This document shows positions 5,555-58,592 of a DNA stretch of 64,000 nucleotides, piece after piece (positions within the stretch are counted from its first letter, which is position 1; each line of letters starts with the position of its first letter). The stretch lies in contig CP126205.1 of assembly GCA_030272155.1 (NCBI GenBank), positions 918,501-982,500 of the forward strand. Reading direction: 5' to 3'. This DNA is from Tetradesmus obliquus. Lineage: Eukaryota > Chlorophyta > Chlorophyceae > Sphaeropleales > Scenedesmaceae. The notes below the pieces were generated by a model, which worked only from the letters and a program-made list of their open reading frames with translations, made no database searches and was not told the DNA's origin. Both the position numbers and the translations under genes were made by a program.

Positions 5555-5957
5555 TTAAGCCCGGGGTGTAGCTGTGAGCCACAAGCCGTCCTGCACCTTG
5601 ATGGTCACACTTCTTCATGCCCTGAGTATGCCTTGATGGTCACACTTCTTCATGCCCTGATAGTGCTAAGCCTGGTCACACTTCCTCAGGCCCGGGGTGT
5701 AGCCGTAAGCCACAAGCCATCTTGCACCTTGATTGTCACCCCCAGATAGGTGCGCGCTGCCACACCAGCCTCGCCCCTGCAGCGCAGCAGCAGCAGCGGC
5801 AGCAGCAGCAGCGGCAGCGGCAGCAGCAGCAGCAGCAGCAGCAGCAGTGCAGGCGGCAGCAGTCAGACACAGGCCGCCCTGCACCTTGATTGTTACTCCC
5901 AGATAGGTGCGCGCTGCCACACCAGCCTCGCCCCTGCAGCGCAGTAGCAGCAGCAGC

Positions 5958-6008
<51 letters not shown>

Positions 6009-6300
6009 TCAGCCACACCAGCTTCAGCATATGTTGACACGCAAGGCCTGGCGGGAACAGCGATGCAAACCCTAGGACATGCAAACACCCAGCACAAGTA
6101 CACCGATACTCCCCCCATGCATGGCGCAAGGCTCAATTCATAGCCCGCCACAGCAGTGCCAGGTGCGCCTTGCTCTGCAGCAACGCTACAGCTGCGCGAG
6201 CATACACACAGCAACAGTTAAACAAAGCCACACCCACCCCATGCGCGGCGCCAAGCTCCACTCGTATCCCGCCAGCAGCATAGCTAAATGCGCCTTGCTC
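5555..6300 (-). repeat. Duplicated 3'-terminal P450 exons
   Basis: The C-terminal coding unit (V-T-I-K-V-Q-[DG]-G-L-[WC]-L-T-A) occurs three times on the minus strand: around 5912-5880 (runs into a CAG tract), 5757-5686 (ends TPRA then TGA), and about 5620-5555 (ends TPRA then TAA). The preceding unit (L-Q-S-K-A-H-L-A) occurs twice, at about 6300-6230 and 6190-6120. Two short leftovers of the terminal unit lie at 5618-5670. CTG tracts (sense strand) separate the copies. Confidence 0.85.
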
Positions 6301-7442
6301 TGCAGCATTGCCAGATTCTGCCCAGCACACGCCTTGGGTCCCAGACTGAACGGCACCCAGCGCGCAGCACCCGTGATTGGGTCTTTCTCTGCATGCTCTT
6401 GCGCCCAGCGCTCCGGCTGAAACTGCAGCAGCGACGGCAAGCACATTTTCAGTACGTATGCACAATCAGCAAGTCACTATCAGCGGCATCCAGCGCGCAG
6501 CTGCTGCGACTGGGTCCTTTTCAGCGTGCTCTTGCGCCCAGCGCTTGGGCTGGAACTGCAGCAGTGCGGGGGTTGCAAGAGGCTGCGCATGAGTACTGTG
6601 ATCGAGTATGTAAACAAAGGGACCCAGCGCGCAGCGCTTGCAACAGCATCCTTCTCTGCATGCTCTTGCGCCCAGCGCTCGAGCTGGAACTGCAAGGCAG
6701 CACCAAGAGTGTCAAACACAACGATAGGTTGAGCAAACACAGGTGACATGCTACGACTGTACGCTGCACCCGCAACTAGATCTTTCTCTGCATGCTCTTG
6801 CGCCCAGCGCTCCGGCTGAAACTGCAGGGCAGCACAAAGGGTGCAGACTTCAGACATGCATCAGTTACGTGCGCGAGTTGTGCGCTGCACCAATGACCAG
6901 GCTTTCCGCGCACAGTCCTCTGGCCAGAGCCGCAACTGGAACTGTAGGGCAGGCCAGGGCGAGCCATTGTTATAACATGCAATGTGACACATTTTCCCAA
7001 AGATGGGCCAGTCATCCCTAAGCTCATCTCACGCCTGCTGTTTCACTTATTTGCATATTTGCTGGACTTGTGCCTTAGCTGTACAGGCCGGATGCAGCAC
7101 AGCAGCTGCTTCTTGGTCTGCAAAGTGTCTTGCAGGGGCCAGCCATCTTGCTCTGCCTCCTGCTGCCGGCTGCTGCTGCATCAGCTGCTGGACTAAACCG
7201 TACCTGCTCAGGCTGCTGCCAGTTGCTGCTGACGTTCATGATGGCATACAGGTTGGGGAACACGATGACACCAGGGGGCAACAGGTAGGGCCCCACACGC
7301 GTGGGCTGCTCAACCATCCTGCAAGCGGCAGCAGCAGCAGCAGTGGGTTCAAGTGCCAAGGAACATGACGCTGGGATGCACCAGATAGGGCCCTACACGC
7401 GTGGGCTGCTCAACCATCCTGCAAGCAGCAACAGCAGCAGGT

Positions 7443-7478
<36 letters not shown>

Positions 7479-8934
7479 GGCTTCAGTGCCAAGGAACACT
7501 CGATGACACCAGGGGGCACCAGGTAGGGCCCCACACGCGTGGGTTGCTCAACCATCCTGCAAGCAGCAACAGCAGCAGGTGCAGCATGAGATTCGATTTG
7601 AGTCCCTCTGGTGTGCAGCTCCTTTTGCTAGGCATTCGGTTGCTTGGCCTGCTCACCGCCTGCTATTCACAATCAGACCACAGTCCGCATCAGCATGCGT
7701 CATCAACAGCCAGACATGCCAGCAGTGCTTGGTTATAACAGCACACACATCACTGCTGCGCACCTTCGTGCGCCAGGAGCCCCTGCAGGGTGCAGCCGCA
7801 TCGCTTCAAACAGGCAGGCCCATGGCTGTGTGCAGCAGTGCTTAGTCACCCATGCACACGCATGCATACTCATGCATACCTACCTTGGTGCAATGTGTGA
7901 CCAGGCTAGCATCTCCACGCATGCCCACCTTGGTGCGCCAGATATACCTGGGTACAGCCTCATCGCTTCATACAGGCAGGCTTGCAGCCTGCTGCATGTC
8001 AGGCAGTGCTTTATATATCCATACTCATGCGTCCCCAGCGCTGCCTACCTTGGTGCACCGGGTGCTCCTGCTGGGTACAGCCTCATTGCCTCATACAGGC
8101 AGGCCTGCAGCAGCGGCAGCTGCTTCAGCACCTCCGGCCCAGCAGCAGCAAAGGCATCCAGCAGCCGCTGCCGCCGCTGCTGCAGCACCTCTGCGCTCAC
8201 TGCTGCCGCCTGCTGCTTCACACCTGCTGCTGCTGATGATTTGCCGGATGCGCTGAAGGTTTCTGGTCCAGCAAGTGCCAGGTCTCCCTGGTCTCGCAGG
8301 CTGGCTGCATCGTCGCTGCCGTTGCAGGTGGTGCTGCTGCTGCTGTTGGCAGCAGCAGCAGCAGCAATGGTGCTGCTAGTGATGCCTGTTGCTGCAAACT
8401 CGTGCTGCAGCTGCTGCTGCAGCTGTGGCCGCACAGCAATGCAGTACCTGCAGGGCGCAAAGGTGCACAATGCAGCCCTCAGCACATATGCCTGTCCATG
8501 CCTAGATGCACTGGACAAGCAGCAGCGACTTCGCGCATTACGGATACAAGATACATTTTAGAGAAGTCAAGAACTTCAAAAAATTAGAGATGTTGTGAAT
8601 TAGTTAGCATAAGAGCAGGTTGGCTGCCCCAGCGTCCCATGCTGTGTGATTGGTGCAGGCTGGAAGCGTTGCTGAGTCCCTACAAAGTTCTGATCTCATG
8701 ATCCTAATCCTGCCTGCCACTCACAGCATTCACCTTCTGCTGGATGGCACCGTTTCTGAAGCGGTCATTGCATCATAGTGTCAGTGCGAATCACAGCTGT
8801 AACATGTTCCTTTGTTATGAAATTAAGTGTGCCTGCCACTCACAGTGTCCACATGATACTTGATGGCACCGTCTCTGAGGCAGTCAGTGCATCACAGATC
8901 TCCGCCACCAGCGCCCCGCGGTTCGGCTGCAGCA

Positions 8935-8981: not shown

Positions 8982-10385
8982 GCAGTCAGTGCATCGCATA
9001 TCTCAGCCACCGACGCGCCACGCTTTGGCTGCAGCAGCGGCAGCAACAAAGGGAGCAGGGCGGCACAAATAGCGCACTGCAGCGCAGCTGCAGCCGCTTG
9101 CGGGCCAAGCAGCAGCAGGTTGTGTGGCATGTGGTTCTGTACCTCAGCCCAGGGTAGGTAGCTCACGCTACGCCTGCCACTGCTGCGCAGTTGCCGCTAG
9201 GCAACCCTGCAGCTTGCCGCAAACCCATGTCATGTCAAATAACAGACACTGCTCACCTTGGTGCCGTGCTCGTCGGTGCTTGCATGAGGCAGCCAGCCGC
9301 CAAGCAGCCATGCATACATGCAGATGTTGGATACACACACATACCACACATGTACATGTGTTACGTACACAACAGCGGCACTCTTTGTTCCTGTGCTTGT
9401 CGGTGATGCGCATGTGGCGGCCGGCTAGGCTGTGGTCATTCACCAGCACAAGCACCATTTTGCATTCTACAAGCCTGTACCAGCGCAGACTGTTGCGTTT
9501 CCACTCACGTTGTTGCCGTGCTTGTTGGTGGTGCGCATGAGGCAGCCAACCACGAGGCAGATATGCAGCATTCGTACTAGCCAGACATTCACTACACACC
9601 TTGTTGCCGTGTTTGTCAGTGATGCGCATAGCGCAGCCAGCCAGGCTGGTGTCATCTTCAGGCACTTATGATCTCATGCGATCTACCAGCACCACATATA
9701 GTGTTTCTTCTACTTTTTCTTCGCACCTTGTTGCCGTGCTTGTCAGTGATGCGCATGAGGCAGCCAGCCAGGCTGTGGTCGTCCTCAGGCACTTGTAAGC
9801 TCATGCAGTCAGCACCACATTCCGCGCCGCTTTGATTTCTTGCGCACCTTGTTGCCGTGTTTGTCAGTGATGCGCATCAGCCAGCCAGCCAGGCTGTGGT
9901 CATTCACCAGCACAAGCACCACTTTGCATTCTACAAGCCTGTACCGCGTTTCCACTCACCTTGTTGCCGTTTTTGTCGGTGATGCGCATGAGGCAGCCAG
10001 CCAGGCTGTGGTCGTCCTCAGGCGCGCCACGTCAGCCACAGATGATGGCGTGCTTCAAAGCTGACGCTGGGTGTTGTGTTTCTGCCCCACATCTTGTTGC
10101 TGTGCTAGTGTGTGCGCGATGCGCATAAGGCAGCCAGCCGCCAAGCAGTCCAGACCGCACACATGCGGCTGTTGAATGCTCACGAATCATATGAAACAGT
10201 GGCTCACCTTGTTGCCATGTTTGTCGGTTATGCGCATGAGGCAGCCAGCAAGGCTGTGGTCGTCCTCGGGCACGCCGCCAGCGGCAGCGTAGCGCTGCTG
10301 CAGCAGGTCGTAGATAGATTCGCCCCAGCCCGCCAAGCGGCGCCGCGCAGACCACATGCGGCGGCCCTCCTGTGAAATGAAGGAA

Positions 10386-10428
<43 letters not shown>

Positions 10429-10970
10429 CGTCAGACGATGGCGCATGGCAATAGGCAGAAGGAACCGGCGGCAGCTTAGCGCTGCTGCAGCAGGTCGTGG
10501 GTGAACTCGCCCCAGCCCGCCAAGCGGCGCCGCGCAGACCACATGCGGCGGCCCTCCTGGGAAATGTAGATTAAAGCAACAGCAGCAGCAGCAGCAGCAG
10601 CACAACAAAGCACATGGCAACTGGCTGAAGGCACCGGCGGCAGCGTAGCGCTGCTGCAGCAGGTCGTAAATAGATTCACCCCAGCCTGCCAGGCGGCGCC
10701 GCGCAAACCACATGCGCCGGCCCTCCTGTTGACATGTGAACAGGAGCAAAGCGCAGCAACATCGACAGGTCACATCACAGCAGCTGGGTGCAGGTCGGAG
10801 CGTTGCCAGGGCAGACGTGGTGGGCGTTGGATGGATGCAGTTGCAAGGGGTTTGTGGTAAAATCATAGCTTCAGGAAGGGCATTGCATGCAGCTCATAGA
10901 TGGAACCGCCCCAGCCCGCCAAGCGGCGCCGCGCAGACCACATGCGGCGGTCCTCCTGCGATGCGATGGA

Positions 10971-11008
<38 letters not shown>

Positions 11009-12217
11009 CGGCAGCAGCAGGTCAAACTAAAGCACATGGCAACTGGCCGAAGGCAGCGGCAGCAGCGTAGCGCTGCTGCAGCAGGTCGTAGATTGACTCG
11101 CCCCAGCCCGCCAGGCGGCGTCGCGCAGACTACATGCAGCAGCCATCCTGTGATTGGACTTCCAATCCTTCCAAATTGGAAGAAGGCAGCAGGTCAGCTC
11201 GGACGATTGGCGGATGGCGACAAGCGAAACCATATGCAGCGGCGTGCGAGGTGCGAGTGCAAGATGCAATATCATCAGGGGCGAGTCAAACCACGGTCAA
11301 ACCATGGTCAAACCACGGTCAAACTATGGTCAAAACATGGTCAAACCAGGACTCACCGCAGTGAGGAAGGGCAGGTACAGGTGCCCCACCCATCTCCAGG
11401 GCTCGCAAATGAACCGACTGGCCGTAGCCATGATAAATGACACATCTCGAGCCTGCTGCTCCGGGTCGATGAAACCCTCGGGAAGCTTCAAAAACCCTCG
11501 GCCGATAACGTTATTTGTCGCGATGAGCACATGGTGCTCGATGTCGAAATCGGCCGGTCCGCCTGCTGCTGCGATGGCTGTGTCGAGGGTGTGCATGGTG
11601 TCACCCATGCAGCCTAGGATGACAGGGTACTGCTTCCTGCAGGGTGCAGCAGCGAGGAGGCGTGAACAGATGTTAAGACGTCTTGATGGTAAATGCACGC
11701 ATGAGTGACAACGATTGCAAAGGATGGATTTGATGCTGCATGGCACAGCAGCCAGATAAGACAATACATTGGACCTGCTGCAGGGTTCAACAGCGAGGTT
11801 TAGGAGTTGACGAACAACATGCACAGAGATAGCTCAAGCAGCCAACACACAAGGCGTCACGCATGCAGCCCAGAATGATAGGGTACTGCTTCCTGCACGG
11901 TGCAGCAGCAAGGACGTGTAAGCAGTGACAAAGGACACTAAAGCACCAAGCCCAGCAGCAATTGGAACAGCCGCTGCAAGTCAAAGCAGGCGAGGCTCAA
12001 TACAACCTTGGACATGCATGCCACGCAGTATCCGTACATAGCATCGCAGATGTACTCCACAGTCTGAAGCCAGCGCGACCAGCAAATGCAAGCTGGAGAG
12101 AGCCTCACTTGACCTCGCTGACAGTGAAAGCTGGCGCTATCGCGCGTCGCGCAGCCCTCCAGGTGCCCTCGTCTTGGTGAGTCAGCATGCCGTTGTAGCC
12201 CTGCAGCCCGTGAGCCT

Positions 12218-13940: not shown

Positions 13941-16900
13941 ATGAGCCACATAGTAAAGCCCGTCTTTTCCTACTTAATGTTTGCAGTAGACCTTGTAAGG
14001 GTGAGTGATTGCGCGCTCCTTTTGGCGTTACAAGGCTTGCATGAGCGGGAAGTGACCAACCACCCCCTCACTTACCTCGTGGCTTTGCTTCTGCTGCCTT
14101 TGCTGCCGCTGTTCTCCCGTACAGGGGCGGTATCATTCATCAAACGGCAGGGAGGTGAGCGTGCGCCACCCTATGAGTACTTCAGCAGCACAGCAGCAGG
14201 GCGCAGGAGCCAAGCAAGCGCTCCTATGCATGGTTCCCTCAAGCTGCATAGCTTAAGCAATACTTGTGCACTGCACAACAGGCGCGTCTGCTGGAGCATG
14301 TGAAGAAGGTGGCTGAGGCGGGCAACCCTCAGGCAGTGCTGGACGCAATTGACCAGTACGCCCACTCACAAGAGTGAGTGCGCCAGCAGCTGCAACTGCC
14401 GCTGCTCAAGATAGCACTGTTCTTGAGCCGCTTGAAAGCCATTTGTCCAATGCACAGCGATTAGTTGATGCATGAATTGTATATCCTTTCTCCATTCTGT
14501 GATTTAGCAACAGAGCTGCTGATGCGGCACTTCCTTTGTGGGGCAACTGCAGGAGCCTGCTGTCTGCGCGTGCCATACTCGCACACACTTGCAGATCGTG
14601 TTGAATGCGGCTGGACCTGCCACCCTATATTCAACCAACAAAAAGTGCGCCGTTACATAACCTGCAAACCTGCTCAATCATCTGTCACTGCTGCTCCTGC
14701 TGCAGGTTCTTCATGAACGTGGGTGATGACAAGGGCAAGATCCTGCTGCAGGAGATGGACAAGCTGCCTGCACCACCCAAGGCCGTGCTGGTGCGTCACT
14801 ATGGTTGCTGTTGTGCAATGCCATTTTTGTGCCAGAAGATGACACGCTACATGCTGTTGAACCTAGCTCATGAGCGCGTCACGCGCAGTAGGGTAGTTGT
14901 ACTGTCCATTTGCTGCCAACTGCTGGACCTTGCCTTAGAAGCTGCTGCCCGACCCTTCTGGCTATTGATTTGCGACAACATGCTATCTGTTGGTGTGGTT
15001 GGCAATTAGAGCAAGCTGTCGGTGAGGTGGGGTGCCGTTGCGCACCGCAGTAAAGACGTCTCTGGATATAACATGAGAGATTTGGTGCTCAAGGGTGTGC
15101 ATTGTGTTTTACGGTGCTCACTCTCCTTTTTGGTCTCAGACCTGTGTTCAACCTGTTGTGGCTCATACCATCCAAGATGGCGCCAGGACCCACATGTAAC
15201 TATTCTCTTTCACTTTTGATGGAACAGTAAGTTGTCAGCTGTTACTAGATGCCGGCAAGATCCTGCTGCATGAGATGGACAAGCTGCCTGCACCACCCAA
15301 GGCTATGCTGGTGCGTCACTTTGTATGTTATTTTGGGACAAGTACGGCAGCATGATTGGGTTTGTGGTTGGTGACATGTTGTGTGTGTGCTGTCTGGCAT
15401 GTGCCGTGAAATGCGATGAGTGGGAGCAGGACTTGCAATTCAGCGCATGCATATGCTTGCACACAGCTCACAAGCATACCCAGCAGCCCTCGGTGCTGCA
15501 GACATGTGCATGGCATCTTCCACCGCCTTTGTTGCTACCCCTTCCATCATGCAATCACAGCACGTAGTAAGACGCATTGTAGCATGTGTTATAAGGTTTT
15601 GGGTAACGCTGCAGGAGCTGGGCACATACTGCGGCTACAGCATCATCCTGCTGGCAGCACACCTCAAGGACCCACAAAATTCACAAAATAACACGCATAT
15701 CAACACACTTCATAGCATTCTCTCTACACTGCGGGACCCAGCAATGCAATCTGCACATCACAACACTCATAGTATCATGTGTTACAACACTCGCTGTAAC
15801 GCTGCCGGAGCTGGGCACGTATTGCGGCTACAGCACCATCCTGCTGGCTGCGCACCTCAAGGACGCACCAACCATTTTGTTACAATACAATAACACTCAT
15901 TGTAACACGTGTTATACCACTCCTTGTAACGCTGCAGGAGCTGGGCACGTACTGTGGTTACAGCACCATCCTGCTGGCTGCACACCTCAAGGACCCCTCA
16001 GCAAAGGTGTACACCATCGACATCTGCGAGGAGAATGTGGAGATAGCAAAGCAGATGATTGCCCACGCTGGGCTGACAGAGCGCGTGGTGCATGTGGTGA
16101 AGCCACTGGACCAGGCGGTGCAGGTGCGCAGCAGCAGCAGCAGCAGCAGCGTGGTGCATGTGGTGAAGCCACTGGACCAGGCGGTGCAGGTGCGCAGCAG
16201 CAGCAGCAGCAGCAGCAGCAGCGTGGTGCATGTGGTGAAGCCACTGGACCAGGCGGTGCAGGTGCGCAGCAGCAGCAGCAGCAGCAGCAGCGTGGTGCAT
16301 GTGGTGAAGCCACTGGACCAGGCGGTGCAGGTGCGCAGCAGCAGCAGCAGCAGCAGCAGCAGCCAGCAGTGGCAGCAGTAGCAGCAGCTGCTTTGTGGTA
16401 GCGCGCAGCTGGTGATGTGTAACGAAAGCTGGTTGTAGCTTTCAAGGATGTGGAGAAAGCCAGGCAGATGATTGCGCACGCTGGGCTGAGCAACAGGGTG
16501 GTGCTGAACTGTCAATTCAACTGTGTTCTAACATGTTACAACTCATGTTATTACACACTACTGCTTGCAGGAGCTGCGTGCTGCGCTCAAGTCTCAGAAG
16601 GCCGACTGCTTTGAGGTGGTGTTCATCGACCACGAAAAGAGCGTGTACCTGTCAGACCTGCTGCTGCTGGTCAAGGAGCAGCTGATCAAGTGAGTTCCAT
16701 CTAACAACAAAAGCATGGAGGCGCGCGCCTGCAGACAACAGTGATCCTTTTTCACACCAGTGGCTATGCACTGTGTGTGCCACATGCTTTCAAATGTCAT
16801 CTGTCGATCTTGGCACAGCATCCTCATTTTGGGGAGAAGAGTGTGTACCTGTCAGACCTGCTGCTGCTGGTGAAGGAGCAGCTCATCAAGTGAAGTCCGG

Positions 16901-17261: not shown

Positions 17262-17535
17262 TACTGCTGCTGATTGCTGCTGCTGCTGTGCGCGTGGGCA
17301 GCAGCTGGAGCGCAGGTTGTGCCTAGTGCTGCTGCTGATTCTGTCTGCTGCTGCTTTGTGGGGGGGATGAAGCAGCAGAGTGACTTCAGCTTTGAGCAGC
17401 ACTTGCACTGCTGATAGCACTCCATCTGCATGGGGCCCTCTGCGCTGTGGCTGCATGACATAATCGGAGTGAGCGTGTACAAGCCGGCAACAGCAGCAGC
17501 ATAAGGCCAGGTTGTGGCTCTTGCATTGCTGCTGA

Positions 17536-18429: not shown

Positions 18430-19125
18430 CACATGCCGCCAGCGCAGTGCGCCACGCGATCCTCACACGCCTCTGCCGGCAGCGTGTAGTCACCCTACCA
18501 ACGCCATGGGGGTTTTACTCGGCACGTTACCCCAGTTTTGGGGGTTTACATGGGGGTTTACTCGGAGTAAGCCGCAAAGCCTGTTCACTCGGCTGAGTAA
18601 TTGCACACATGCATCACATGCAGCGCTGCACTCAGGTCTGCAGGGCGGTGCCAGTGCAGTGCGACACAGAATCCTCACACGCCTCTGCCAGCAGTGTGCA
18701 GTCCTCCATCAACACATGCAGCGCTGCATGGGACACATGTCTGCGCAACCAGCAGCACTGTCATCAAAATGGTGAGCAGTAGCGCAACGCTGCACGCCAG
18801 CACCAAATAACACTCACTGATGCTGCAGGGTTCATCGGCAGGCTTGATGACAGCACAGGTATGTAGCCAGCGGCACACACAGCATTGGAAAATTCCTTAC
18901 ATGCTGCGAGTGCAATGACACACTGAGTCTTCACACGCTTCTGCCAGCAGTGTGCAGTCCTCCATCAACACATGCCAAGCACAACCACATGCAGCTTCAC
19001 GCGTGCACTGCTGCTGCTGCTGCTGCTGCTGCTGGCCTTCGGTGCTGCCCTGCAGCAGCAGCAGCTGCCCAGCCCTTTGCAGCAAGCCCACACTGTACTG
19101 CACAAGGCTGCTGTCTAGGCCTAAC
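18430..19125 (-). repeat. Extra copies of the 3'-terminal exon of the PHD gene
   Basis: The coding end of the PHD gene (L-G-L-D-S-S-L-V-Q-Y-S-V-G-L-L, a polyQ run, then H-V-L-M-E-D-C-T-L-L-A-E-A-C-E-D-S-V) is duplicated downstream. A long copy at about 19125-18897 ends C-H-C-T-R-S-M and TAA. Shorter, decayed copies lie at about 18780-18650 and 18500-18425. The long copy differs by scattered substitutions only and keeps its frame, so it could serve as an alternative last exon. Confidence 0.85.
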
Positions 19126-19145
19126 ACCACAAACCCTAAACCTGT

Positions 19146-41053: not shown

Positions 41054-41205
41054 CGGTCTGCACCTGCAGGGGCGAGGGCATGCCTATCAGCAAGCAGCCC
41101 GGCAGCAGAGGCAACCTGGTCATCAAGTTCGACGTGGCCTTCCCTCGCCAGCTCAACAGCAGCCAAAAGGAGCAGATACGCAGCGTGCTGCCGCAGGCGG
41201 TGTAG
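36730..41205 (+). CDS. DNAJB/Sis1-type Hsp40 co-chaperone
   Basis: A class-B J-domain protein that stimulates Hsp70 ATPase and delivers unfolded clients, probably cytosolic or nuclear since no targeting peptide is seen. Exons: 36730-36796 (MGKDYYNILGVAKGADDAEL), 36942-36973 (YRKLAMKWHP), 37311-37376 (DKNPDNRATAEAKF), 37759-37899 (end of J domain, YDAYGEEGLK), 38981-39380 (Gly/Met/Phe-rich region, then the substrate-binding start LGCTLEELFNGSTRKMKI), 40587-40812 (HARFKRDGDNLL, TSKIIR), 41070-41205 (G-E-G-M-P-I-S-K, ending in VLPQAV and TAG). The HPD motif is split across the exon 2-3 junction. All phases agree. There is no Cys-rich zinc domain, which excludes class A. Several exons have tandem copies. 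Confidence 0.92.
37640..37975 (+). repeat. Small copies flanking the J-domain end exon
   Basis: About 100 bases before exon 37759-37899 a copy of its first bases (gccctgcaacag then V-L-S-D-P-E-K) lies near 37655. Just after the exon, ADDIFKDVS is repeated at about 37943-37970, separated by a CAG tract. Confidence 0.8.
38338..39065 (+). repeat. Gly/Met/Phe-rich DNAJB exon, four tandem copies
   Basis: The unit starting ctgcag then F-F-G-G-G-G-M-G-G-G-D-P-F-A-G-L-F-G-G-M begins at 38338, 38540, 38760 and 38981, a spacing of 202-221 bases. Copies 1-3 end in gggggcaaag without a clear GT donor and share about 90 bases of intron. Only copy 4 continues into the substrate-binding domain. All four keep the acceptor and frame, so splicing into any of the first three would need an unrecognised donor or cause read-through. 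Confidence 0.93.
39430..40330 (+). repeat. E-E-I-L-E-L-N-V-K-P-G-W-K-K exon end, about six extra copies
   Basis: The last 75 bases of exon 38981-39380 (G-W-K-K-G-T-K-L-T-F-Q-Q-K and the donor GTGAGC) plus intron sequence recur with starts near 39448, 39610, 39765, 39905 (diverged), 40033 and 40258. Most keep frame and a GTGAGC-type donor; the copy at 40033 has GTTAGC and the last is truncated. The shared intron begins with a tttgac-containing 12-bp repeat. Confidence 0.92.
40117..40231. repeat. 12-bp tandem repeat tttgactggaag, about 9 units
   Basis: A perfect or near-perfect array in a DNAJB intron, with shorter versions after each copied exon end from 39396 onward. Confidence 0.95.
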
Positions 41206-41239
41206 ATGAAAGCCTAATGCCTGATGCCTGAGGCGCGCT

Positions 41240-41525
41240 GGTGTGCCTGCTAGCTCAACAGCAGCCAAAGGAGCAGATACGCAGCGTGCTGCCGCAGGCG
41301 GTGTAGATGAAAGCCTAATGCCTGATGCCTGAGGTGCGCTGGTGCTCCTGCTAGCTCAACAGCAGCCAAAAGGAGCAGATACGCAGCGTGCTGCCGCAGG
41401 CCGTTGGCGGATGCCTGATGCACGCTGGTGTGGTGTTAGTACAATGGGATGTTTGGCCTATGGCAGCTCAGCAGCAGCCAAAAGGAACAGATACACAGCG
41501 TGCTGCCGCAGGCTTTATGGATATG
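41240..41525 (+). repeat. Copies of the DNAJB 3'-terminal exon
   Basis: The coding end with agcagccaaaaggagcagat (Q-L-N-S-S-Q-K-E-Q-I-R-S-V-L-P-Q-A-V then TAG) recurs after the stop at about 41250-41310, 41355-41402 and 41467-41515. The first keeps the same stop. They are 3' of the gene and would be part of the 3' UTR unless used as alternative ends. Confidence 0.9.
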
Positions 41526-43956: not shown

Positions 43957-46157
43957 GCGCAGGTACTACCACAGCACCGCCAGCTTCCCATGCGCAGCGG
44001 CAACTGCCGGCCAGCATCACCTGCCAGCTGACAGCAGCGCAGCCATGACAGTAGATGTGCTGATGCAGGGTATGGACCAGCTGGTGACTGCTGATGCAGC
44101 AGCCAAGACCATCACAGTGCAGGCTGGTGAGTGATCCACATCCAGTCACTGGATGTTTCACACTCAGTGTGAATTCACACTGGGTGTGAATTGTGACAGG
44201 CATGGCAAGTGCTTGTAGCATCAGTAACTCCTCATGAGATCTGCCCATTTGACGTTTGTGCTTTTACCCCTGCTGCAGGCATGACTGTGAGCAGTATGAT
44301 AACCATTGCAAAGCAGCAGGGGCTAGCAGTGCCTCTCATGGCAGTGCCAAACTATGGAGGCCTCACGATTGGTGGCATCATGGCAACAGCAGCAACAGGC
44401 ACTGGCACTGCTGGAAGCCCAAGTGCCCTCTGTGACATCGTTACTAACATTCAGTGGGTGGATGGGAAGGGTGAAGTTCACAGCAGTGACAGAAGTTCAC
44501 CGGAGGGCAGGGCGATATGTGGTGGGCTGGGTGTCACCGGTGTGGTGACACAAGTGACACTGCAGCTGCAGGAAGCTGGAAAGGTGCTGGTGAGGACAAA
44601 TGCACATGTGGCAGATACAAGGCTCATGGATGACATCGAAGCAGTGCAGAAGGTGAGTGTGAGGGGATCAGCAGCAACTGCAGCAGCAGCAGCAGCAGCG
44701 GTGGCAGCAGCTTGCAGCAGTGGCGGTGTCAGCAGCAGCGGTGTCAGCGGCAAGTGTGGCAGTAGCAGCAGCAGCAGCAGTAGCAGCAGCAGTAGTGGGT
44801 GAAGTAGTGGGTGCACTGGAAGAGGCAGCAGCTGCAGAGCCGCGACGGCATTCGCTGCAGCAGCAATGAACCGGATTGCAGTAGCCTTGTGTCTCAGCAG
44901 TTGCTGCCACCTGCACATCACCGTAGCCTTGTCTTGTTGATGAAAGAAAAACATTGGACCCGCACCCTGCTGCACCTGCAGGCGACACAGCATGTGACAG
45001 TCACATGGCGGCCAGATCTCGGCAAGTACACAGCACACATGTTCACACCCACTGATCTGCCAGATCCAGTCAACGCCACAATCTACCAAGTTGACCGGCC
45101 AGAAAGTGACGCCTTGCTGCTCAGCCAAGCACTCAAGGACTGGCAGAATGATGTTCACAGCGTGAATCAGCTGCTGAACTCTGCGATGTGTCAGATTGCG
45201 GTGCCGCTGTCATCCCTGGACATCTTCTGGGTGAGATTAGCATGTCACTGCTGCATGCCTTGAATGACCAACTTGCAGCTGGTATTGAATCTTTATAAAT
45301 TGGTTAACAAAAGTTTGCCATGGGCAGGCTCAGAGCACTATGCATCTGCTGGCGTGCAACAGACAAAATGGCAAGATCGCAGCCAGCGGCCACCAACATG
45401 GCAGATAACAGTCATTTTTCTGTTATTTTGTTACAGGCTGTCAGCAAGATCACGAAAAAAGGAGTCAACCACGGCCTCGCAGAGACCAACAGCATCCTGT
45501 CAAGTGCATGCCATGGCGGCCCAGATGGCAGCTGCTCATTCACAACAGTAGGCCACATCGGAGTTGGAGATATCCACTTCACCATTGATCAATCGGATCT
45601 AAGGAATTGGATTGCAGATGTCAAGGAAGTGATTAACAAGGACTTGCAGAATGCAGGGACCAGCTTCTTCAATGCGCTGCTTGGCAAGAACAAGAGGGAC
45701 TGCCTGCCTCCTGGCTACTTCTGGTGAGCAGCCTGCAGTGCCTGCTGTTACAAGGGGTGACATGAGAGCCAGCGGCTTTGTCTGTGGCAGGGGTTAAGTT
45801 TTGGGTGATACTTGAGTCAGGGGGTGACATAAGGGCCAGGGGTTTTGGGTTACTTGTAGCCAGGGGATTTTGGTGAGGCTTCGTCCCTCTTGGCAGGACC
45901 AAGAGGCACTGCCTGCCTCCTGGCTACTTCTGGTGAGAGGCTGTTGTTTTCAACCAGTGGCTGTTACATGTGCAAGGCGTTGTGTGTGAGACAGGGGTCT
46001 TGAGTATGCTGCATGCATGTTTGTTCGGTCTTTGTCACAGCTCCCCTGCAACTTCTGTTACCCGCGACTGATGCTGCTGTTGTTGCTGCTGCTGCTGCAA
46101 ACAGGCTGCGCTTTGGCAACCCCACAGATGACCATGTTGGCCTCAATGCATCTTGTC

Positions 46158-46193
<36 letters not shown>

Positions 46194-47332
46194 CCAACCG
46201 GCTGCGCTTTGGCAACCCTACCAATGACTACGTCGGCCTCGATGCAACATATCATACTGCTGGACTATGTTGGGCTAAGTGCATCTTGTCCTGCTGCTGC
46301 TGCTGCTGCCAGGTTGCGCTTTGGCAACCCCACAGATGACTGTGTTGGCCTCAATGCAACTTGTCATGCTGCTGGACTGTGTCGGCTTCAATGCATCTTG
46401 TCCTGCTGCTGCTGCTGCTGCTGCTGCTGCCGCTGCTGCTGCTGCCAACAGGCTGCGCTTTGGCAACCCCACAGATGACTATGTTGGCCTCAACGCAGCG
46501 CCATACAAGCAGCCAGTGCATGTGCAGCTGTCACTGTTCAGGAACAGGGAGCACGGCGCGGCACCACTCAAGAATGGACATGTGCTGGCATTCTTGGAGC
46601 AGCTGACTCTGTGCAAGTGAGTGTGACATATTGTTCACTTGAGGTACAGCTGAGCTCCCAGCAGCATTTTGAGATGCGGCTGAGCTCCCAACAGGTTTTG
46701 AGGTACAGCTGAGTGCGCAACAGCGTGGCAGACACGTGCATCTGTATGACGTGGTTAACAGAACATCGACCGGGCCTTTACCTACAGCAGACTGCCTGCC
46801 TGTATGATCTGTAACATGATCTGCCGCTGCCTGTGCTGCATCCTGGCACTGCCCTGTCGCAGGTACCGCGGCGGACCACCTATTGGAAAGAACTATGACA
46901 GGACAATTACATACAGCAGACTGTGCTCAAGTGGCACTGGCTGCCGTGATGATCTGTAACATGATACACCGCTGCCTGTGCTGCATCTTGGCACTGCCCT
47001 GCCGCAGGTACCGCGGCCGTCCACACTTTGGCAAAAACTACGACAGAACCTTCACCTACAGCAAGTGCCCCATCGCCGACCGCCACCCCCAATGGTCAAG
47101 CTGGACAGCAGCTGCAAAGCAGCACGACCCTCTAGGGTTGTTTGCATCCCCACTGGTTGCCACAGTGCTGCGCAATGGCAGCTATGAGAATTATCCTGGC
47201 TGTGGCATTGATGGTGGCTGCTTCTGTGAGACTGATGAGCACTGCAGGCATCCTAGCCAGGGCACGAGCTATGGCTGGAAGTGCCTGCCTTCGAAAGCCT
47301 TCCCAGATATCAAGGCGTGCAGGCCAGTGTGA
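43208..47332 (+). CDS. L-gulono-1,4-lactone oxidase-like FAD enzyme, secreted
   Basis: A FAD-dependent aldonolactone oxidase-type protein resembling the plant gulonolactone oxidase family, oxidising a sugar lactone towards ascorbate or an analogue. Exon 1 (43208-43285, donor GTAGGG) encodes a signal peptide (SRWLAAALFVLASVQCCG). Exons: 43471-43694, 43963-44126, 44279-44652 (FAD-domain part: VPNYGGLTIGGIMATAATG), 44982-45230 (VTVTWRPDLGKYTAHMF), 45437-45723 (HGLAETNSIL), 46452-46616 (LRFGNPTDDYVGLNA), 47008-47332 (FGKNYDRTFTY, then a Cys-rich tail CGIDGGCFCETDEHC, stop TGA 47330-47332). Phases agree throughout. The Cys-rich C terminus and signal peptide match plant family members rather than the mitochondrial galactonolactone dehydrogenase. 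Substrate and acceptor are not predictable. Exons are duplicated in three places. Confidence 0.85.
43881..43955. repeat. (CTG)25 before an oxidase exon
   Basis: 25 uninterrupted CTG triplets, followed by tgcgcag as the 3' splice site of exon 43963-44126. It is the longest pure tract in the window placed at a splice acceptor. Confidence 0.97.
45895..46475 (+). repeat. Oxidase exon copies: PPGYFW end and LRFGNPTDD start
   Basis: The end of exon 45437-45723 (C-L-P-P-G-Y-F-W then GTGAGC) is copied at about 45899-45932 with donor GTGAGA. The start of exon 46452-46616 (L-R-F-G-N-P-T-D-D-Y-V-G-L-N-A) is copied three times upstream at about 46100, 46199 and 46314; each has a (CTG)n tract and acceptor before it. 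The copies carry only the first 17 or so codons, then run into more CTG. Confidence 0.9.
46735..46925 (+). repeat. Partial copies of the last oxidase exon start
   Basis: Two fragments precede exon 47008-47332: about 46760-46798 (I-D-R-A-F-T-Y-S-R-L) and 46857-46922 (acceptor gcag, Y-R-G-G-P-P-I-G-K-N-Y-D-R-T-I-T-Y-S). The second keeps the acceptor and phase but no donor. Confidence 0.85.
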
Positions 47333-51295: not shown

Positions 51296-54200
51296 GCAGT
51301 AATCGTGAGCAGCAAGAAAGTGACATTTCTGCACCGCTGCATATGTATGGCCCGGCCACTTGTCCCAACAATTGCCCATGATTTCAACCCATGCATGGCC
51401 GGCTGCGTGCTTGTACTGCCTACGAGTGCATCAGTTCCTACAGCGCAGCCGAATGCAGGCTATGCAACAGCGCATTGTTCCGCCACCAACCTTGCAAAGC
51501 AGCTGCTGCCGCGCCTCAGCGCCTGCACAGATAACACATTGCTGCAGTGCTGCTGAATGCAGGCTATGCAACAGTGCATTGTGCCCTCCACTCACGTTGC
51601 AAAGCAGCTGCTGCCAGCCACACTGCAGTGCAGCTCAAAGCTGCACACATCCTTGATAATACAATTGCGGCAAAGATGATCACGATCTCACCCACCTCGC
51701 GAAGCAGCTGCTGCCGCGCCTCAGCGCCTGCACGATCTCCTCCTTGCTGCTGCCCAGCAGCACCTCCATCTCCCCCGCATACTCCTCCAGCGCAAACTGC
51801 ACGCAAAAAGTGAAGCATTATCACAGGACAGCACAGCGGGAGTGAATGTGTCAGGGTGATGCAACTTGCAGCACCTTCATCCCCCCGGCATACTCCTCCA
51901 GCGCAAACTGCGTGCACAAACAGGCAGACAGGCACAGCAGAAATGTTTGTCTAGGTGCCACTCAATGAGGCAGCACGCCTTGCAGATTTTCTGCTCAGCA
52001 GCACCCCCAGCGCAAACTGCAAGCACCAGAGGACAGGCAGCCATGGGCAGTCATGCAGACACATTCAAAATGATGGAGTCCAAGTGAGGCAACTTCCAGC
52101 AGCTCCATCTCCCCCGCTTACTCCTCCAGCGCAAACTGCGAGCAGAAACCGGCAGGCGGACACAGCATGGGTAATTGCGTGAGGTGGTGGAACGTGCAGC
52201 GCCTCCCACATACTCCTCTAGACACAGCAGACAAGATTGTCCAAGTGAAGCAGCAAGTTGGGCAGGTCTTCTGCCAGCAGCACCAACATCTCTTCGCATA
52301 CTCCTCCAGCGCAACCTGCAAGTATCAGAAGAAAAGGCACAGCAAGGCTATTTCTGTCAGTTGATAGGACTGGCAGCACCTCCATTTCACCCGCTTGCAC
52401 CTCCGCTGCAAACTGTAAGCACAGACAAGCAGGCACACAAAGCAGGGCCCACGTCAGCAACATGTTTTGGTGACTTGCAGGTTTTTTGTGCAGCACCTCC
52501 ATCTCGCGGCATACTTGCCCAGCACGAACTACAGCCACATGCATGCACTCACGTTTGGTGGCTGTCACGCCCCCGTAGGCCAGCGCCTTGTGGTAGTGAA
52601 GCTGGATGGCTATGCACGCGCTGTGGCATATACTGATAGATAGAGGGGTTACACTAGCATGTAGTTTGTGCCAGGCAGGTGAGCCGACATTTCTGAACTT
52701 AAAGTGCTTACCAGTGATGGACTACCGTGTGACAAATCGGCGGCCATGGACATGGTTTGTTTTGCAGCTGGCTGTTTTGTTGTTGCCATTCACTCACATT
52801 GGTGGTGGCAGACACACCCCAGTAGGCCAGCGCCGCCTTGTCGTAGGCCCTCGCAGCATCCTCCTCAGTGGCAAAGCCGCCCAGGTACACCTGCAGCAGC
52901 AATGATGCACATTTGGGGTTTTAAGGTTTCACATACACACACACATACAGACAGACAGCAAGCAGTGCATTGTTGAGGCCCTCGCAGCATCCTCCTCAGT
53001 GGCAAAGCCGCCCAGGTACACCTGCAGCAGCAATGACGGGAACGAAAAGCAAGCAAAACATTAGCCAGGTGTTCAGGTGCACTGCTTGCGGAAGGAGAGC
53101 GCCAAGCCACCCAGGTACACCTGCAGCAGCCATGATGCACAGACACACAGCAAGCAGGACATCATTTTGGCATGTGATTAGACATATAGTTGCACGCACA
53201 GCATCCTCCTCACTGGCAAAGTCTCCCAGGTACACCTGCAGCAGCAGCGATGCGCAGGGCAGCAGCAACAATAGCAAGCACGGCATCAGTTTGGCGTTTG
53301 ATTAGGCATAGAGTTGCACGTGCAGCATCTTTCTCAGAGGCGAAGCTACGCGGGTACACCTGCAGCAGCAATGATGCACATACAAACAGCAAGCAGGCCA
53401 CCAATTTTTGTGTGATATTAGGCGTATGGTTGCACGCGCAGCATCCTCCTGAGTGGCAAAGCCGCTCTGCAGCATTATTGTGCACCAATCAATGTAATCC
53501 ATCCATCAGTTATGTATGCATTACATCGACACACGTGACAGGGCAGCAGCAGCAGCAGCAGCAGCTTCAGCACCAGCAGCCTGCCAGTTCACATCTTACT
53601 GCTGCGTGTCACTCAGCACTGCCCTCGCTGGGAAGCAGCAGTAGAAGTATGCGTTTGAAATAACTCAAATGGCTGTGTACATTGCAACAGCAGCAACACG
53701 CCCCACCTGTTTGCCGCGCGTGCGGCCGCCGCTGCCTGCCGTCTTGCGTGCGGCATGTGCATCCCACAGGTGCGCCTCCCACTTGCCTGTCCAGCGGTGC
53801 CTGCAGTCAGACAGTCCAACGCATGTTGCAATCAGGGGGCGTTCTGGCACACACCAACCTACTAGGGTGCGCCTTCCACTTGCCTGTCAGCGGTGCCTGC
53901 AGTAGCCAGGCAAACATGCTACCAAGAAAGCTAATAGGATTGTTGTATCTGACCGGCAAGAAAGCTAATAGGATTGTTGTATCTGACAGACAATGTCCAC
54001 TGGGGGAGGCCTCCTCTTTGCCTGACCAGCGGTGTCTGCAGGCAGACAGCCCCAGACAGCTGCAGTGTGTCAGAAAGGTGGGGAGGCTGCAGACTGTCTC
54101 TATCACTGCAGCTTTGCAATCCTGGGACTGTGCCTCACCGTGTCACTCCCTTGAAGCTGCTTGTTGAGGAGTGCCCCACTGCTGTGCCCCTGCGGCCTGG

Positions 54201-56780
54201 CGGCACAGCAGCAGCAGCCCCCGGCAGCTCCAGGCCATCAGCTTCAGCCACAGCAGCAGCACCGCCGGGAGCCCTGCGGCGCTTGGCGGTGCGTGCGTTG
54301 GCTGTAGCAAACGATTGCGGCAGCAGAGACAGCAGCAGCAGCAGGCAGGCAGGGCAGCAGTCCTCAGCCAGCGGCCTCGGCCTGTTTGTGCAGCCTGACG
54401 CAAGACAAGCTCGAGCAGCTTGTGATTGTGCTATCAATGTGTCCCGGAGGGTTGGTGTCCAGCAGGAGACCGCTCGCTGCTTACTTTCACAGTGAACGGG
54501 TGACCTTTGCAACTAGCACGCTGTGATTTAACACCATGTCGTCACCCCACCTGCACTGTCGTCGCTGTCCTCTGCTCCCTCATGCTTCCAGCTGCCGTCG
54601 TCACTCTTCACCTCCCCTGACCCGCTCCCACCAGCATGTGCTGCTGCATTCGCTGCTGCCCTGGCCGCAGCCACCTGGCGATGCTTTCCTGCTGCTGCCG
54701 CATGGCTGCTGCCTGCGCCGCCGCCCCTGCTGCTGCTGCCGCTGCTGCTGCGGCCGATTGGCTTCAGCTCCATCAGCAGGTCATCGCCAGTGTAGCTGTC
54801 TGTTGCATACTGGCGGATCATATTTCGCCCTTTGAGTGCTGCACGGCGCTGGCTGCGGCCTCCTGCTGGGGTCTGCTGGAGAATGCTGCTGGTGCTCTCG
54901 GTGCGGTGCAATTCCTCATCTACCTCTTCAACTGCTGTGGAGTTCACACAAAAGAAATGGTGCGGCAGCAGAACAGGCATGATGCAACGTACTGAACAGC
55001 TTTGAAATGCCACACACGCTAGCACTGCATGGGGTGTGCAGGATGCTGCTCGTGCTCTCAGTGCGGTGCAGCTCCTCATCTACCTCTTCAACTGCTGCAA
55101 AGTTTAGACAGAGTTTTGATGCGGCAGCAGAACAGGAAGCAAAGCTGTCAGTGCACAAACGTTGCGCCATAAGACAGCAGCAGTGATGCAACGTAGGCAA
55201 CAGCAGTGAAGCTGCTACATACGCCAGCAATGCATGGGGTGTGCAGGAAGCTGCTGGTGCTCTCGGTGCGGTGCGACTCCTCATCATGCTCTTCAACTGC
55301 TGTGCAGTTTACACACAGGACCGAGATGGAAGCAGAATAGGCAGCAAAACGGTCAGTTCAAAGATGTGGGGTGTGCAGGAAGCTGCTGGTGCTCTCGGTG
55401 TGATGCGACTCCTCATCATGCTCCTCAGCTGCTGCAAGGTTACATACACAACATATTGGGTGTGGCAGCAGTGTACAGCAGATCCAGCAGCAAGGCAGAC
55501 AGTTGCCAGCAGACAACATCACTGTCATTGACGATGCTAATCGCAGATTCAACAATGCAACAGTTGCTGCTCAATAGCTGGGCTGTACAGGGGCTGGCAC
55601 TTTTCAAAAAATCTTTTCAACAAACCTCACCTGCCACCAATCCGTCCAAGCCCTCCATTGCTACAGGCTCCTGCAGTCCCGCCACCCCCTCCAGTGTAGG
55701 GCTGCCAGATGCTGCCATCAGGCGCTGCTTGTTGTTTGGTTTCTGTCTTCTCTCGGCCTCTTTTCCTCTCACACAAACCCACACTACCTACTTCATCTTC
55801 TACCAGTGCACATCACCGTATTCACACCTCACAGGCGGCTTCACAAACAACGAAAGCAAACACACCATTGGCCTCACCTGCTCCTAGACCGTCCAAGCCC
55901 TCCATAGCCGCAGGCTCCTGCAGTCCCGCCACCCCTTCTGTATAGTGTGCAGAACATCACAAGAAAGATACTAGTTGACCGCCTCACCTGCTGCCCCCAA
56001 CCCTTCCAAGCCCTCCATAGCTGCAGGGTCCTGCAGTCCCACCACCCCTTCCAGTGTAGGGCTGCCAGGTGCCGCTATCAGGCGCTGCTTGTTGTTCGGC
56101 TTCTGCCTGCTCTGTGGCCTCTTTTCTCTCTGACACAAACCCACACTACCTAATTCATTTTCTACCAGTGCACATCACCGTATTCACACCTCACAGGCGG
56201 CTTCACAAACAACGAAAGCAAACACACCATTGGCCTCACCTGCTCCTAGACCTTCCAAGCCCTCCATTGCTACAGGATCCTGCAGCCCCACTACCCCCTC
56301 CAGTGTGGGGCTGCCAAGCGCTGCCATGAGGCACAATTCAAACCCAGCGATCATCACAAGCTGGCAAAGCATCTCACCTGCCCCCAATCCTTCCAAGCCC
56401 TCCATAGCTGCAGGGTCCTGCAGTCCCGCCACCCCCTCCAGTGTAGGGCTGCCAGGTGCCGCCATCAGGCGCTGCTTGTTGTTTGGCTTCTGCCTGCTCT
56501 GCGGCCTCTTCTTTAGAAGCTTGCTTGACTTGCCGTCTGCTGCAGCCCCATGCCTTGGGCTGCCTTTCTTGGGGCTACCAGATGCTGCTGTCACCACATA
56601 ATCTATTGTACCGCCAGCTGTCAGCATCTGCTGACTGTACTGCTGACTGTACTGCTGGTTGAACTGCTGGTTGTAATAGTAGTAGTTGTACTGCTGAGCT
56701 GCCAGCGAGTCTGTCGCTGCCACTCTCAGACCTGTAAGGCCCATCACTCCCATGCCTGCATGATGATGATGATGTTGTCC

Positions 56781-56825: not shown

Positions 56826-56863
56826 GGCTATGGGGTCACCGTAAGGCATGTAGCCAGCCCACA

Positions 56864-56925
<62 letters not shown>

Positions 56926-57604
56926 GCTGTCAGATTTTGAGCCTGTCCATTCTGGCTGCTGAGCCTCCTGAGGCTATTAGCATCAATCAGTAGATGCGGC
57001 CTAGCATGTAGCAGCCGCTGCTGCTGGCTGCCAGCTGAAGCACCTGCCCCCTGCTGCCCTGGCACGCCAGCTGCACTCGCTGGCACCACCAACCTGGCAT
57101 CTATCATGATATCTCCACCATCAGGTGCTGTCAACTCACTCAGCAAGCTCTGCAGATCTGGGCAAGCGTCTTCCAGATCCATCAGAAGGGATCCTGGCTG
57201 CGGCATGCTGCCTGCTGCACCATTTGCTGCTGCAGCAGCTGCTGCCATACCAGCTACATTGCTGCCGGCTACCATGCTCGCAGTCAATGACAGTCCATGC
57301 GGAAGGCTGTTCAGTCCTGCAAGGGTGCCGAGGGCTGCCACATTCATGCTGCCTGCTGCTGGCAATAGCTGCCCATCCTGACCATCGCTGAACCTGAATC
57401 TGTCAATGCTGACCAGCATACCTCCACTGCTGTTCCTGCTGCTGAACTCAATACCTGCTGGCACTGCTGTTGCAGCGGCAGCAGCAGCAGCAGCAGGACC
57501 TGCTGCTGCCCCTTGCAGCTGCATTGGCTGTGGTTGAACTCGAAAGCCTGTAGCAGATGCTGCTGCAAATGCTGCCGCAGCAGCTGCAGCAGACCCTGGT
57601 GTCA

Positions 57605-57642
<38 letters not shown>

Positions 57643-58592
57643 CCAGCAGGTGTCACTGCCCCCGCAGGAATCTGCAGTCTGAGGCCCTGCAGGGATTGGG
57701 GACTGGCTGCCACCTGCCCTGCAATGCTGCTGCTGCTGCCAGGGAAGGCACCCCCAGCACCAGCAGCAGCAGCAGCAGCTGCTGCTGGCTGCTGCATGCT
57801 GACAAGGCCACTGCTCACTGTCCAGCCCTGTGGAGTCATGCCCTGCAGTTGCTGCATTGCCACGCCATGCTGCGGTGCTGCTGTGTGTACAGCCGGGCTC
57901 CCTGAAGCATGTGCTGTCAGCGGTGTCTGGTGGGATGCAGCGGACGGGGAAGTTAGCGCTGGCGTGTAAGGTCCTGCTGCTGCCGCTGGCTGCTGCATGA
58001 GAGCAGCAGTATCAGCAGGTGCTGCTGCAGCAGCCTGTCCCTTGCTGCCAGGTGCTGCTGCATTGGCAGCTGCTGCTTGCTGCATCAGCGGCTGGGGCTG
58101 GGGAGCCAGTAGGGCATCTAAACTGACAGATTGATCAGCTGCAGCGGCGCTTGACAAAATCCCATCCAGGGAATCTGATCCGCTGCCTGAGCTTAGCACT
58201 TTTGGGATGTCCATAGACCCATCCTGTGATTGCTTGGGGCTTCCAGGGTGGCCTTTGTACTGCCAGTGTTCCGCATACGTGTTTGTTGTGTAGCTGAAGG
58301 GCTGTGTCTGTTGCTGCAGGCTGTTGGAAAGCTGTAGCCCTGCTGGATTGGCTGCAGGGTTTGCTGCTGCTGCTGCGCTGGCGGTGTTGAGGGGGCTTAT
58401 GGTGAGCGTGGGGTTGTGGCGGGGGCTGATTTGGAGGGTAGTGTTATGTAGGGTTGACCCAGGGTTGGTGGTGGCGATGGGGTCGGCAGTTGTGTTGGTA
58501 GGATCAGGTTGGCTGTGCCAGTTGGGTGGGGTGCCAGGGGATGACAGCAGTGTGGGCTGGTCGGGTGGGAGCTGCTGCTGAAGTGACGACAT
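49305..58592 (-). CDS. Two-domain AP2 transcription factor (AINTEGUMENTA-like architecture)
   Basis: A plant-type transcription factor with two AP2 DNA-binding domains. The first exon (58592-56378, donor GTGAGA) encodes a 738-residue Gln/Ala/Ser-rich region with a basic stretch ([19 protein letters not shown]). Next: 54934-54551 (acidic/Ser-rich), 54301-54139 (KRRR, then SSFKGVTR opening AP2 domain 1), 53800-53707 ([13 protein letters not shown]), 52890-52798 ([20 protein letters not shown]), 51796-51696 (linker, [15 protein letters not shown]), 51257-51167 ([20 protein letters not shown] opening domain 2), 50834-50491 ([29 protein letters not shown]), and 49490 to 49305 ([15 protein letters not shown]). 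Both domains keep the YRG-like and RAYD/KAYD elements. A short exon near 52562-52603 may belong too. Nearly every exon has tandem copies, so the real combination needs transcripts. Confidence 0.85.
49700..50770 (-). repeat. AP2 gene exon with T-D-Y-K-D-M, two further copies
   Basis: The unit F-P-L-T-D-Y-K-D-M-[HQ]-E-L-Q then poly[19 protein letters not shown] and G-E-G-Y-A-P-A-A-A is in exon 50834-50491 and again at about 50330-50090 and 49920-49680. The two extra copies end in similar Leu/Gln-rich tails; the spacer before them includes a remnant of the preceding coding block (G-L-[CR]-G-T-R). Confidence 0.88.
51690..52510 (-). repeat. AP2 linker exon, about six tandem copies
   Basis: The start of exon 51796-51696 (acceptor, then [10 protein letters not shown]) recurs on the minus strand at about 51910, 52015, 52135, 52315 and 52410, with variants V-A-L-E-E-Y-A-K-R and [10 protein letters not shown]. 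All but the first break off after 10-20 codons. Conserved gcag acceptors suggest copying from the intron side. Confidence 0.85.
52560..53480 (-). repeat. AP2 domain-1 YLGGFAT exon, about six tandem copies
   Basis: Acceptor ctgcag then V-Y-L-G-[GD]-F-A-[TS]-E-E-D-A occurs at 52890 (complete), 53030, 53125, 53235, 53355 and, without the start, near 53470. The upstream copies carry only the first 11-16 codons. The later part of the exon (Y-[DH]-K-A-[AL]-[LA]-A-Y-[WG]-G-V-[ST]-A-T) is copied at 52603-52562 with donor GTGAGT. Confidence 0.88.
53755..54050 (-). repeat. AP2 W-E-A-H-L exon, three copies
   Basis: ctgcag then [12 protein letters not shown] begins at 53800 (complete). Shorter copies begin near 53901 (L-T-G-K-W-K-A-H) and 54042 (W-S-G-K-E-E-A). 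Between them lies a perfect 30-base duplication (caagaaagctaataggattg and on) at 53926 and 53957. Confidence 0.85.
54870..55445 (-). repeat. AP2-gene exon start [12 protein letters not shown], four copies
   Basis: The exon start at 54934 ([18 protein letters not shown]) is preceded by three copies at about 55095, 55293 and 55432 (E-E-H-D-E-E-S-H in the last two). The three extra copies share a different continuation, H-T-P, in place of Q-Q-T-P. Confidence 0.9.
55625..56455 (-). repeat. AP2-gene exon end [10 protein letters not shown], five copies
   Basis: The end of the first exon ([24 protein letters not shown], donor GTGAG at 56377) is followed by four copies, at about 56314-56238, 56060-55985, 55940-55880 and 55700-55625. 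Each is followed by GTGAGG, so all keep a donor. The copies at 56314 and 55940 share a long following intron block (cacacaccattggcctcacc on the plus strand). Confidence 0.9.
56865..56924. repeat. (CTG)20, polyQ tract in the AP2 gene
   Basis: Coding-strand (CAG)20 read as Gln in the first exon. Confidence 0.97.

Follow-up and report, generated by a model that had tools for sequence, protein, structure and literature searches.

Spare exon ends arrayed in the introns of unrelated genes of the green alga Tetradesmus obliquus

A tandem duplication across an intron-exon boundary has been described in the RdRp gene of potato (PMC4974935), and according to the passages of that paper on this gene, the one event gave rise to a new intron whose splicing is demonstrated by RNA reads. 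This is the single precedent for duplication that crosses a splice junction. The ubiquitous internal gene duplication of Gao and Lynch (2009), as cited in other papers, shares with the present case duplication within genes on a genome-wide scale; it is cited for segments that possibly include whole introns, and the citing passages describe no arrays of exon ends. For one gene of Scenedesmus acutus, alternative transcripts are reported to arise by intron retention and exon skipping, the relevant part of the report making no mention of duplication (PMC12899622). A literature search on green algae and Tetradesmus for exons duplicated in tandem or in part found no such report, which does not prove that there is none. 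Here we describe a window of 64,000 nt from Tetradesmus obliquus (assembly GCA_030272155.1, contig CP126205.1, positions 918,501-982,500 of the forward strand), in which functionally unrelated genes carry arrays of copied exon ends in their introns. All of the figures come from the DNA sequence alone, and from this one genome.

The unit that has been copied is one end of an exon together with the adjoining intron: either an acceptor with the start of the exon, which is found upstream of the complete exon, or the end of the exon with its donor, which is found downstream. We picked 19 exon-end segments and counted the extra copies around each, after removal of a match to a glycine repeat within the DnaJ exon. 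This gave 52 extra copies, in a P450, a COMT-like, a DnaJ, a GULO-like and an AP2-like gene and in an unnamed gene at 54.5-58.6 kb (Table 1). In a separate count by junction, 17 of 22 had spare copies. The catalogued copies span or adjoin existing splice junctions, and the splice dinucleotide is nearly always retained (23 of the 25 acceptor copies have AG, and 23 of the 25 donor copies have GT). The inner ends, judged by eye in 17 segments, are ragged and mostly have no partner splice site. The full two-sided pattern is seen in the P450 exon at 10,369-10,208 and the DnaJ exon at 38,981-39,380, and the largest arrays, at 9.4-10.3 kb and 39.3-40.3 kb, have seven members (the real copy and six more). 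"Exon duplication" is thus the wrong term, what has been copied being one end of an exon and its single splice site. In the P450 region 10208-11147 the copies of the start and those of the end are broken off close to one internal point, as if there had formerly been an intron there.

An earlier note on this DNA had claimed that exons, or exon ends with neighbouring intron, were copied two to nine times in six functionally unrelated genes, with acceptors or donors conserved. The repeated blocks are real, the splice sites are conserved and the genes affected are unrelated. Gene finding used Pfam together with a self-trained hexamer model, and Pfam confirms the P450, O-methyltransferase and DnaJ genes. 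There are indeed multiple copies, but of exon ends and not of whole exons, and in arrays of seven members at most. The number of genes stands, but one of them is replaced: the PHD-like frame of that note scores below the Pfam cut-off and adjoins an array (18,437-19,404) that is not demonstrably exonic, and the unnamed gene takes its place. No Pfam match was obtained for the four pieces of the GULO-like and AP2-like genes that were tried, and these labels, taken from the earlier note and from motifs, are presumptive.

The explanation that we consider probable is that local tandem duplication is frequent in this genome, and that the copies which cross a junction survive as intron. A frequent process at the DNA level would make short direct tandem duplications. 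Those falling within exons would be purged, and those crossing a junction would be tolerated, since the exon body still has a working copy attached to it and the spare end sits in the intron along with its acceptor or donor. Repeated events would put arrays of exon starts ahead of the exon and arrays of exon ends behind it, so that introns would come to be built partly of echoes of both flanking exons. Splicing presumably uses the copy attached to the body. This is best supported in the DnaJ gene, where the profile match in the first copy runs to position 56 and that in the next exon begins at 55, so that the first copy should be the working one and the other six intronic; in the other genes, the real copy was taken as the member that continues into the remainder of the exon. 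The cell would ignore the spare sites because they have no partner across the exon, that is, by exon definition.

Self-comparison of the window, run after masking of short-period repeats, gave 144 matches, all of them direct and less than 1 kb apart (113 at less than 500 bp, 31 at 500-1000 bp), which fall into 36 local arrays. The first 60 kb was also run as six 10-kb bins, with 3-mer-shuffled copies as the control. The bins contain 8, 12, 0, 4, 6 and 7 arrays, covering 30.6, 30.8, 0, 15.8, 16.0 and 31.3% of bases; no inverted matches were found within the six bins, and no matches of any kind in the shuffled copies. A region of about 6 kb at 24200-30300 has little coding signal on either strand and zero local arrays. 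As adjacent direct copies, the window arrays are tandem genomic duplications. Twenty systematic 10-kb stretches of the genome were put through the pipeline used for the window bins. Among nearest-neighbour pairs, with those more than 1.5 kb apart excluded, 43 of 70 are contiguous tandem, 16 are spaced and 11 lie between in the window, and 30 of 43 are contiguous and 7 spaced in the samples; the median step is 157 bp and 126 bp respectively. The closeness of the copies and their direct orientation are in keeping with slippage or unequal exchange. The arrays at 3271-4001 and 39.3-40.2 kb are minisatellite-like, with a short head-to-tail unit, and many others consist of two or three diverged members. 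The former, which lies between RCC1-like and P450 genes, has 8.1 copies of a 90-bp unit at 98% identity and has an open frame of 235 codons on the minus strand. A 45-bp in-frame repeat at 60247-60546 (6.7 copies, 99%), coding HMFNKRSMFNQHSKL-like units, is found upstream of a TatD DNase match at 62031-62348.

The divergence between copies looks partly allele-like, which would agree with an assembly artefact in which repeated or alternative-haplotype pieces were placed in tandem. We consider this highly improbable, given a median identity between neighbouring copies in the window of 86%, arrays of up to seven members at steps near 100-250 bp, and occurrence on many contigs. Introners or mobile introns were also considered and set aside, there being no match more than 1 kb apart in the masked window; genome-wide dispersal of the units was not searched.

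The steps are not tuned to the reading frame, since their length is a multiple of three in 25 of 70 cases in the window and 17 of 43 in the samples. This speaks against mutually exclusive exon clusters of the kind found in animals. Such clusters, in the account of them given in PMC6071210, resemble the algal arrays as tandem homologous coding blocks with adjacent intron, and the conservation of splice sites also agrees, but they are built of entire exons, alike in length and with a splice site at each end, whereas the algal copies are ragged half exons with one. A whole-exon model was rejected on both completeness and frame length, and its chance is very slight. Just as slight is the chance that the duplications at splice junctions start from fragile CTG/CAG tracts at the ends of introns. 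The window does contain 92 such tracts of at least 5 units, many of them intronic and immediately ahead of an acceptor when read on the coding strand, but the tracts inside pair spans number 20 against 20.9 expected (10 against 11.9 in the samples), and this candidate was dropped because there is no association beyond chance. Pairs with at least 20 bp of coding-scored sequence number 47 of 70 in the window, with 38.3 expected from random placement, and 35 in the samples, with 26.0 expected, so the arrays are not all exonic. With no association with CTG/CAG and only a mild coding excess, no process that seeks out exons is needed.

The earlier note had placed the cause in the genome and not in one gene family, and this is borne out. 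At least one local array is found in 15 of the 20 stretches. Array coverage is zero in five stretches and at least 13% in another five, two of which (L011 and L028) look like satellite or long-repeat DNA and were excluded from the sample means, pair statistics and placement tests. The six window bins hold 37 arrays (6.2 each) and the 18 non-satellite stretches 40 (2.2 each), so the window is about 2.8 times denser: the feature is general in the genome, and the window, which might have been exceptional, stands at the dense end. Inverted matches in the samples occur only at L010 (1), L011 (14) and L012 (2). Direct repeats, separated by as much as 8.6 kb, make up 82% of L011 (C1:4500001-4510000), which resembles satellite or clustered mobile-element DNA.

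Housekeeping genes are affected too. A profile search found repeated exon pieces in 10 of 32 chaperone gene clusters genome-wide and in 9 of 31 outside the window, several clusters having a single match and being unable to show repeats, and short copies escaping the profile. A repeat was counted where pieces overlapped in profile range by at least 15 positions and by at least half of the shorter piece. By family, the repeat-bearing clusters are 6/11 for Cpn60_TCP1, 2/10 for HSP70 and 2/11 for DnaJ_C, one of the last being the window gene. In a chaperonin gene on another contig (L029), a complete exon has three acceptor-type copies before it, and another exon has at least four donor-type copies after it, the last of them being cut off early and adjoining a copy of the start of the next exon. 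The intron is made of echoes of both neighbouring exons. At about 7268-7990 of L029, the donor copies of one exon end have differing donors (GTGCGT, GTAAGT, GTGCGG and GTGCGG) next to exon parts that are nearly alike.

If an exon is fully constrained and the copy next to it neutral, the ratio of nonsynonymous to synonymous divergence (dN/dS) between them should be at least 0.5. Between real exon ends and their copies, dN is 0.056, dS 0.221 and dN/dS 0.25 (19 arrays, bootstrap 0.19-0.36), and none of 4000 bootstraps reaches 0.5; the value is again 0.25 when two chaperonin arrays are added (59 copies, 21 arrays), these giving 0.11 and 0.35 by themselves. Between copies, dN/dS is 0.38, the ratio to the real-copy value being 1.52 (95% 1.10-2.01, with 6 of 1000 bootstraps at or below 1); one hybrid chaperonin copy was left out of this set and retained in the analysis of the chaperonin arrays. 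The higher value between copies implies that they are more relaxed than the real exon. A polarised test of 113 private changes had a mixed outcome, with 47 synonymous, 63 nonsynonymous and 3 stop changes against expected fractions of 0.287, 0.682 and 0.03, the stops being close to their neutral share. Stops are found in 4 of the 52 catalogued copies, and single-base indels also occur.

Pure neutral decay was assumed at first, and was doubted because the first and second codon positions are conserved in the copies (31/582 and 23/581, with 97/578 at the third position and 421/2848 in intron). Calibration on the non-coding parts of the arrays is milder, giving a two-branch neutral rate of 0.12-0.13 and about 0.06 for a single branch, although it runs low because only alignable stretches were used. 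Positions 1 and 2 (0.057 and 0.052) are near a single neutral branch, and position 3 (0.200) is high. Plain neutral decay does not fit fully. The copies may have had a short neutral life after arising from, or recombining beside, alleles that had already diverged, and such an origin would give their divergence its partly constrained look. The claim of the earlier note that the products mostly decay survives in part, in the relaxation and the stops, but not in the real-copy ratio; its claim that copying is ongoing fits one array only, that of four identical 41-bp exon ends (16,083-16,360).

The main rival, which we think unlikely but well ahead of the others discussed above, is that the spare ends are functional alternative exon ends, spliced in and kept by selection. 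The low real-copy dN/dS, down to the lowest chaperonin array, is in its favour, as are the splice dinucleotides, which are mismatched at 4 of 100 positions, nearby intron being mismatched at 203 of 500 (ungapped comparison). Against it are the ragged inner ends, the stops and indels, the lack of frame in the steps, the relaxation between copies, and the nearness of codon positions 1 and 2 to the single-branch rate.

Several observations weigh against survival of junction-crossing copies as passive intron. The real-copy dN/dS lies below the neutral expectation, in the chaperonin arrays as well, and the allelic account would require synonymous diversity near 10%. Some copies keep the donor consensus next to altered intron, as with GTAAGT in L029. 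In one P450 exon, some of the start copies have a GT at their inner end and two of the six end copies are preceded by an AG, so that a few P450 copies may be complete small exons. Finally, a minority of the pairs (16/70 in the window, 7/43 in the samples) are spaced and not contiguous, and the coding content of the pairs as a whole is mildly above random placement.

Table 1. Genes, real exons and spare exon ends in the window (positions in bp of the window unless given in kb).
Gene	Feature	Position	Strand	Remarks
P450	gene	about 13.5 to 5.7 kb	-	Pfam-confirmed
P450	complete exon EGRRMW...HGNK	10208..10369	-	real copy
P450	four acceptor-type copies, first 72-92 bp of exon 10369-10208	10465..11147 (11147-11059, 10955-10884, 10725-10634, 10556-10465)	-	each behind AG; two with stops
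P450	six donor-type copies, last 39-65 bp of exon 10369-10208	9385..10023	-	donors GTGAGT, GTGCGC, GTGCGA, GTGTGT, GTGAGT, GAGTGC
P450	haem-site exon, real	6238..6422	-	PF00067 positions 382-438 in frame 6210-6464
P450	three acceptor-type copies, haem-site exon start	6484..6821	-	
P450	one donor-type copy, haem-site exon end	6114..6182	-	donor lost (GGGAGT)
P450	exon GPYLLPPGV, real	7204..7318	-	
P450	two acceptor-type copies, start of exon GPYLLPPGV	7365..7556	-	
P450	two donor-type copies, exon ending at 8049 (LYEAMRLYPAG)	7764..7987	-	
O-methyltransferase (COMT-like)	gene	14.1-17.5 kb	+	Pfam-confirmed
COMT-like	exon, real	15938..16123	+	Methyltransf_24 / Methyltransf_3 (frame 15929-16333)
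COMT-like	two acceptor-type copies, start of exon 15938-16123	15615..15864	+	one with AG changed to CG
COMT-like	three identical donor-type copies, last 41 bp of exon 15938-16123 and CAG tract	16149..16330	+	
COMT-like	donor-type copy, exon end at 14790	15254..15310	+	
COMT-like	donor-type copy, exon end at 16689	16834..16889	+	
COMT-like	donor-type copy, exon end at 17225	17365..17467	+	18-bp insertion with stop
PHD-like	single frame	19,332-24,242	-	
Kinase	gene	30-36 kb	-	
DnaJ	gene	36.7-41.4 kb	+	DnaJ_C confirmed by Pfam
DnaJ	complete exon, real	38981..39380	+	DnaJ_C profile 3-56 (38963-39439); next exon 40586-40792 is 55-111
DnaJ	three acceptor-type copies (AG and about 100 bp of exon start), exon 38981-39380	38338-38437, 38540-38639, 38760-38858	+	
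DnaJ	six donor-type copies, end of exon 38981-39380, in next intron	39443..40317 (39443, 39600, 39757, 39901, 40031, 40248)	+	last without junction
DnaJ	one donor-type copy, earlier exon end	37900..38010	+	KD/GTGAGT, copy KD/GTCAGC
DnaJ	tandem copies, last exon end with stop codon and following sequence	41147..41513	+	
GULO-like	three acceptor-type copies, exon starting at 46452	46105..46358	+	
AP2-like	three extra copies, exon start (real 52890 down)	52958..53465	-	
AP2-like region	three acceptor-type copies, exon start at 51796	51868..52314	-	
AP2-like region	one donor-type copy, end (51696) of exon starting at 51796	51491..51528	-	
Unnamed (54.5-58.6 kb)	three acceptor-type copies, exon start at 54934	55030..55431	-	
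Unnamed (54.5-58.6 kb)	donor-type array, five members	55631..56468	-	used end uncertain: 56240 taken as real, 56378 within same open frame

A wider proposal can be made tentatively, and we regard it as possible rather than likely: that introns in this lineage grow mainly by echoing the flanking exon ends, in most intron-rich genes, that unpaired sites close to consensus are passed over through exon definition, and that the spare, partly constrained ends can take the place of the working exon or lengthen it. If the echoing is true, it would drive intron growth throughout the genome, and nature would have set up a test of how a splice site is chosen among identical ones. Most of the evidence for tandem duplication as a source of introns comes from single cases, and one genome here provides many datable examples in conserved genes, enough to make a statistical study of intron growth possible. 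Identical splice sites stand side by side, and only one of them has a complete exon to be joined to, an arrangement that offers a direct test of exon definition and makes this genome a good place to study how look-alike sites are passed over. The spare copies will mislead gene predictors, and the constraint on them is a puzzle.

It is worth comparing these arrays with the described routes by which duplication within a gene is accommodated by splicing. The AGGT model (Hellsten 2011, reviewed in PMC3443670) likewise has a local tandem duplication in a gene that is absorbed by splicing, but, as the review's passages on the model describe it, a duplicated exon segment supplies both of the new splice sites, whereas in the alga existing junctions are duplicated and introns lengthen; the algal copies do not follow the model as set out there. 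Compared with the RdRp gene of potato, where a single event is documented by RNA, the alga, known here from DNA, has arrays of up to seven members, at both ends of exons and in many genes.

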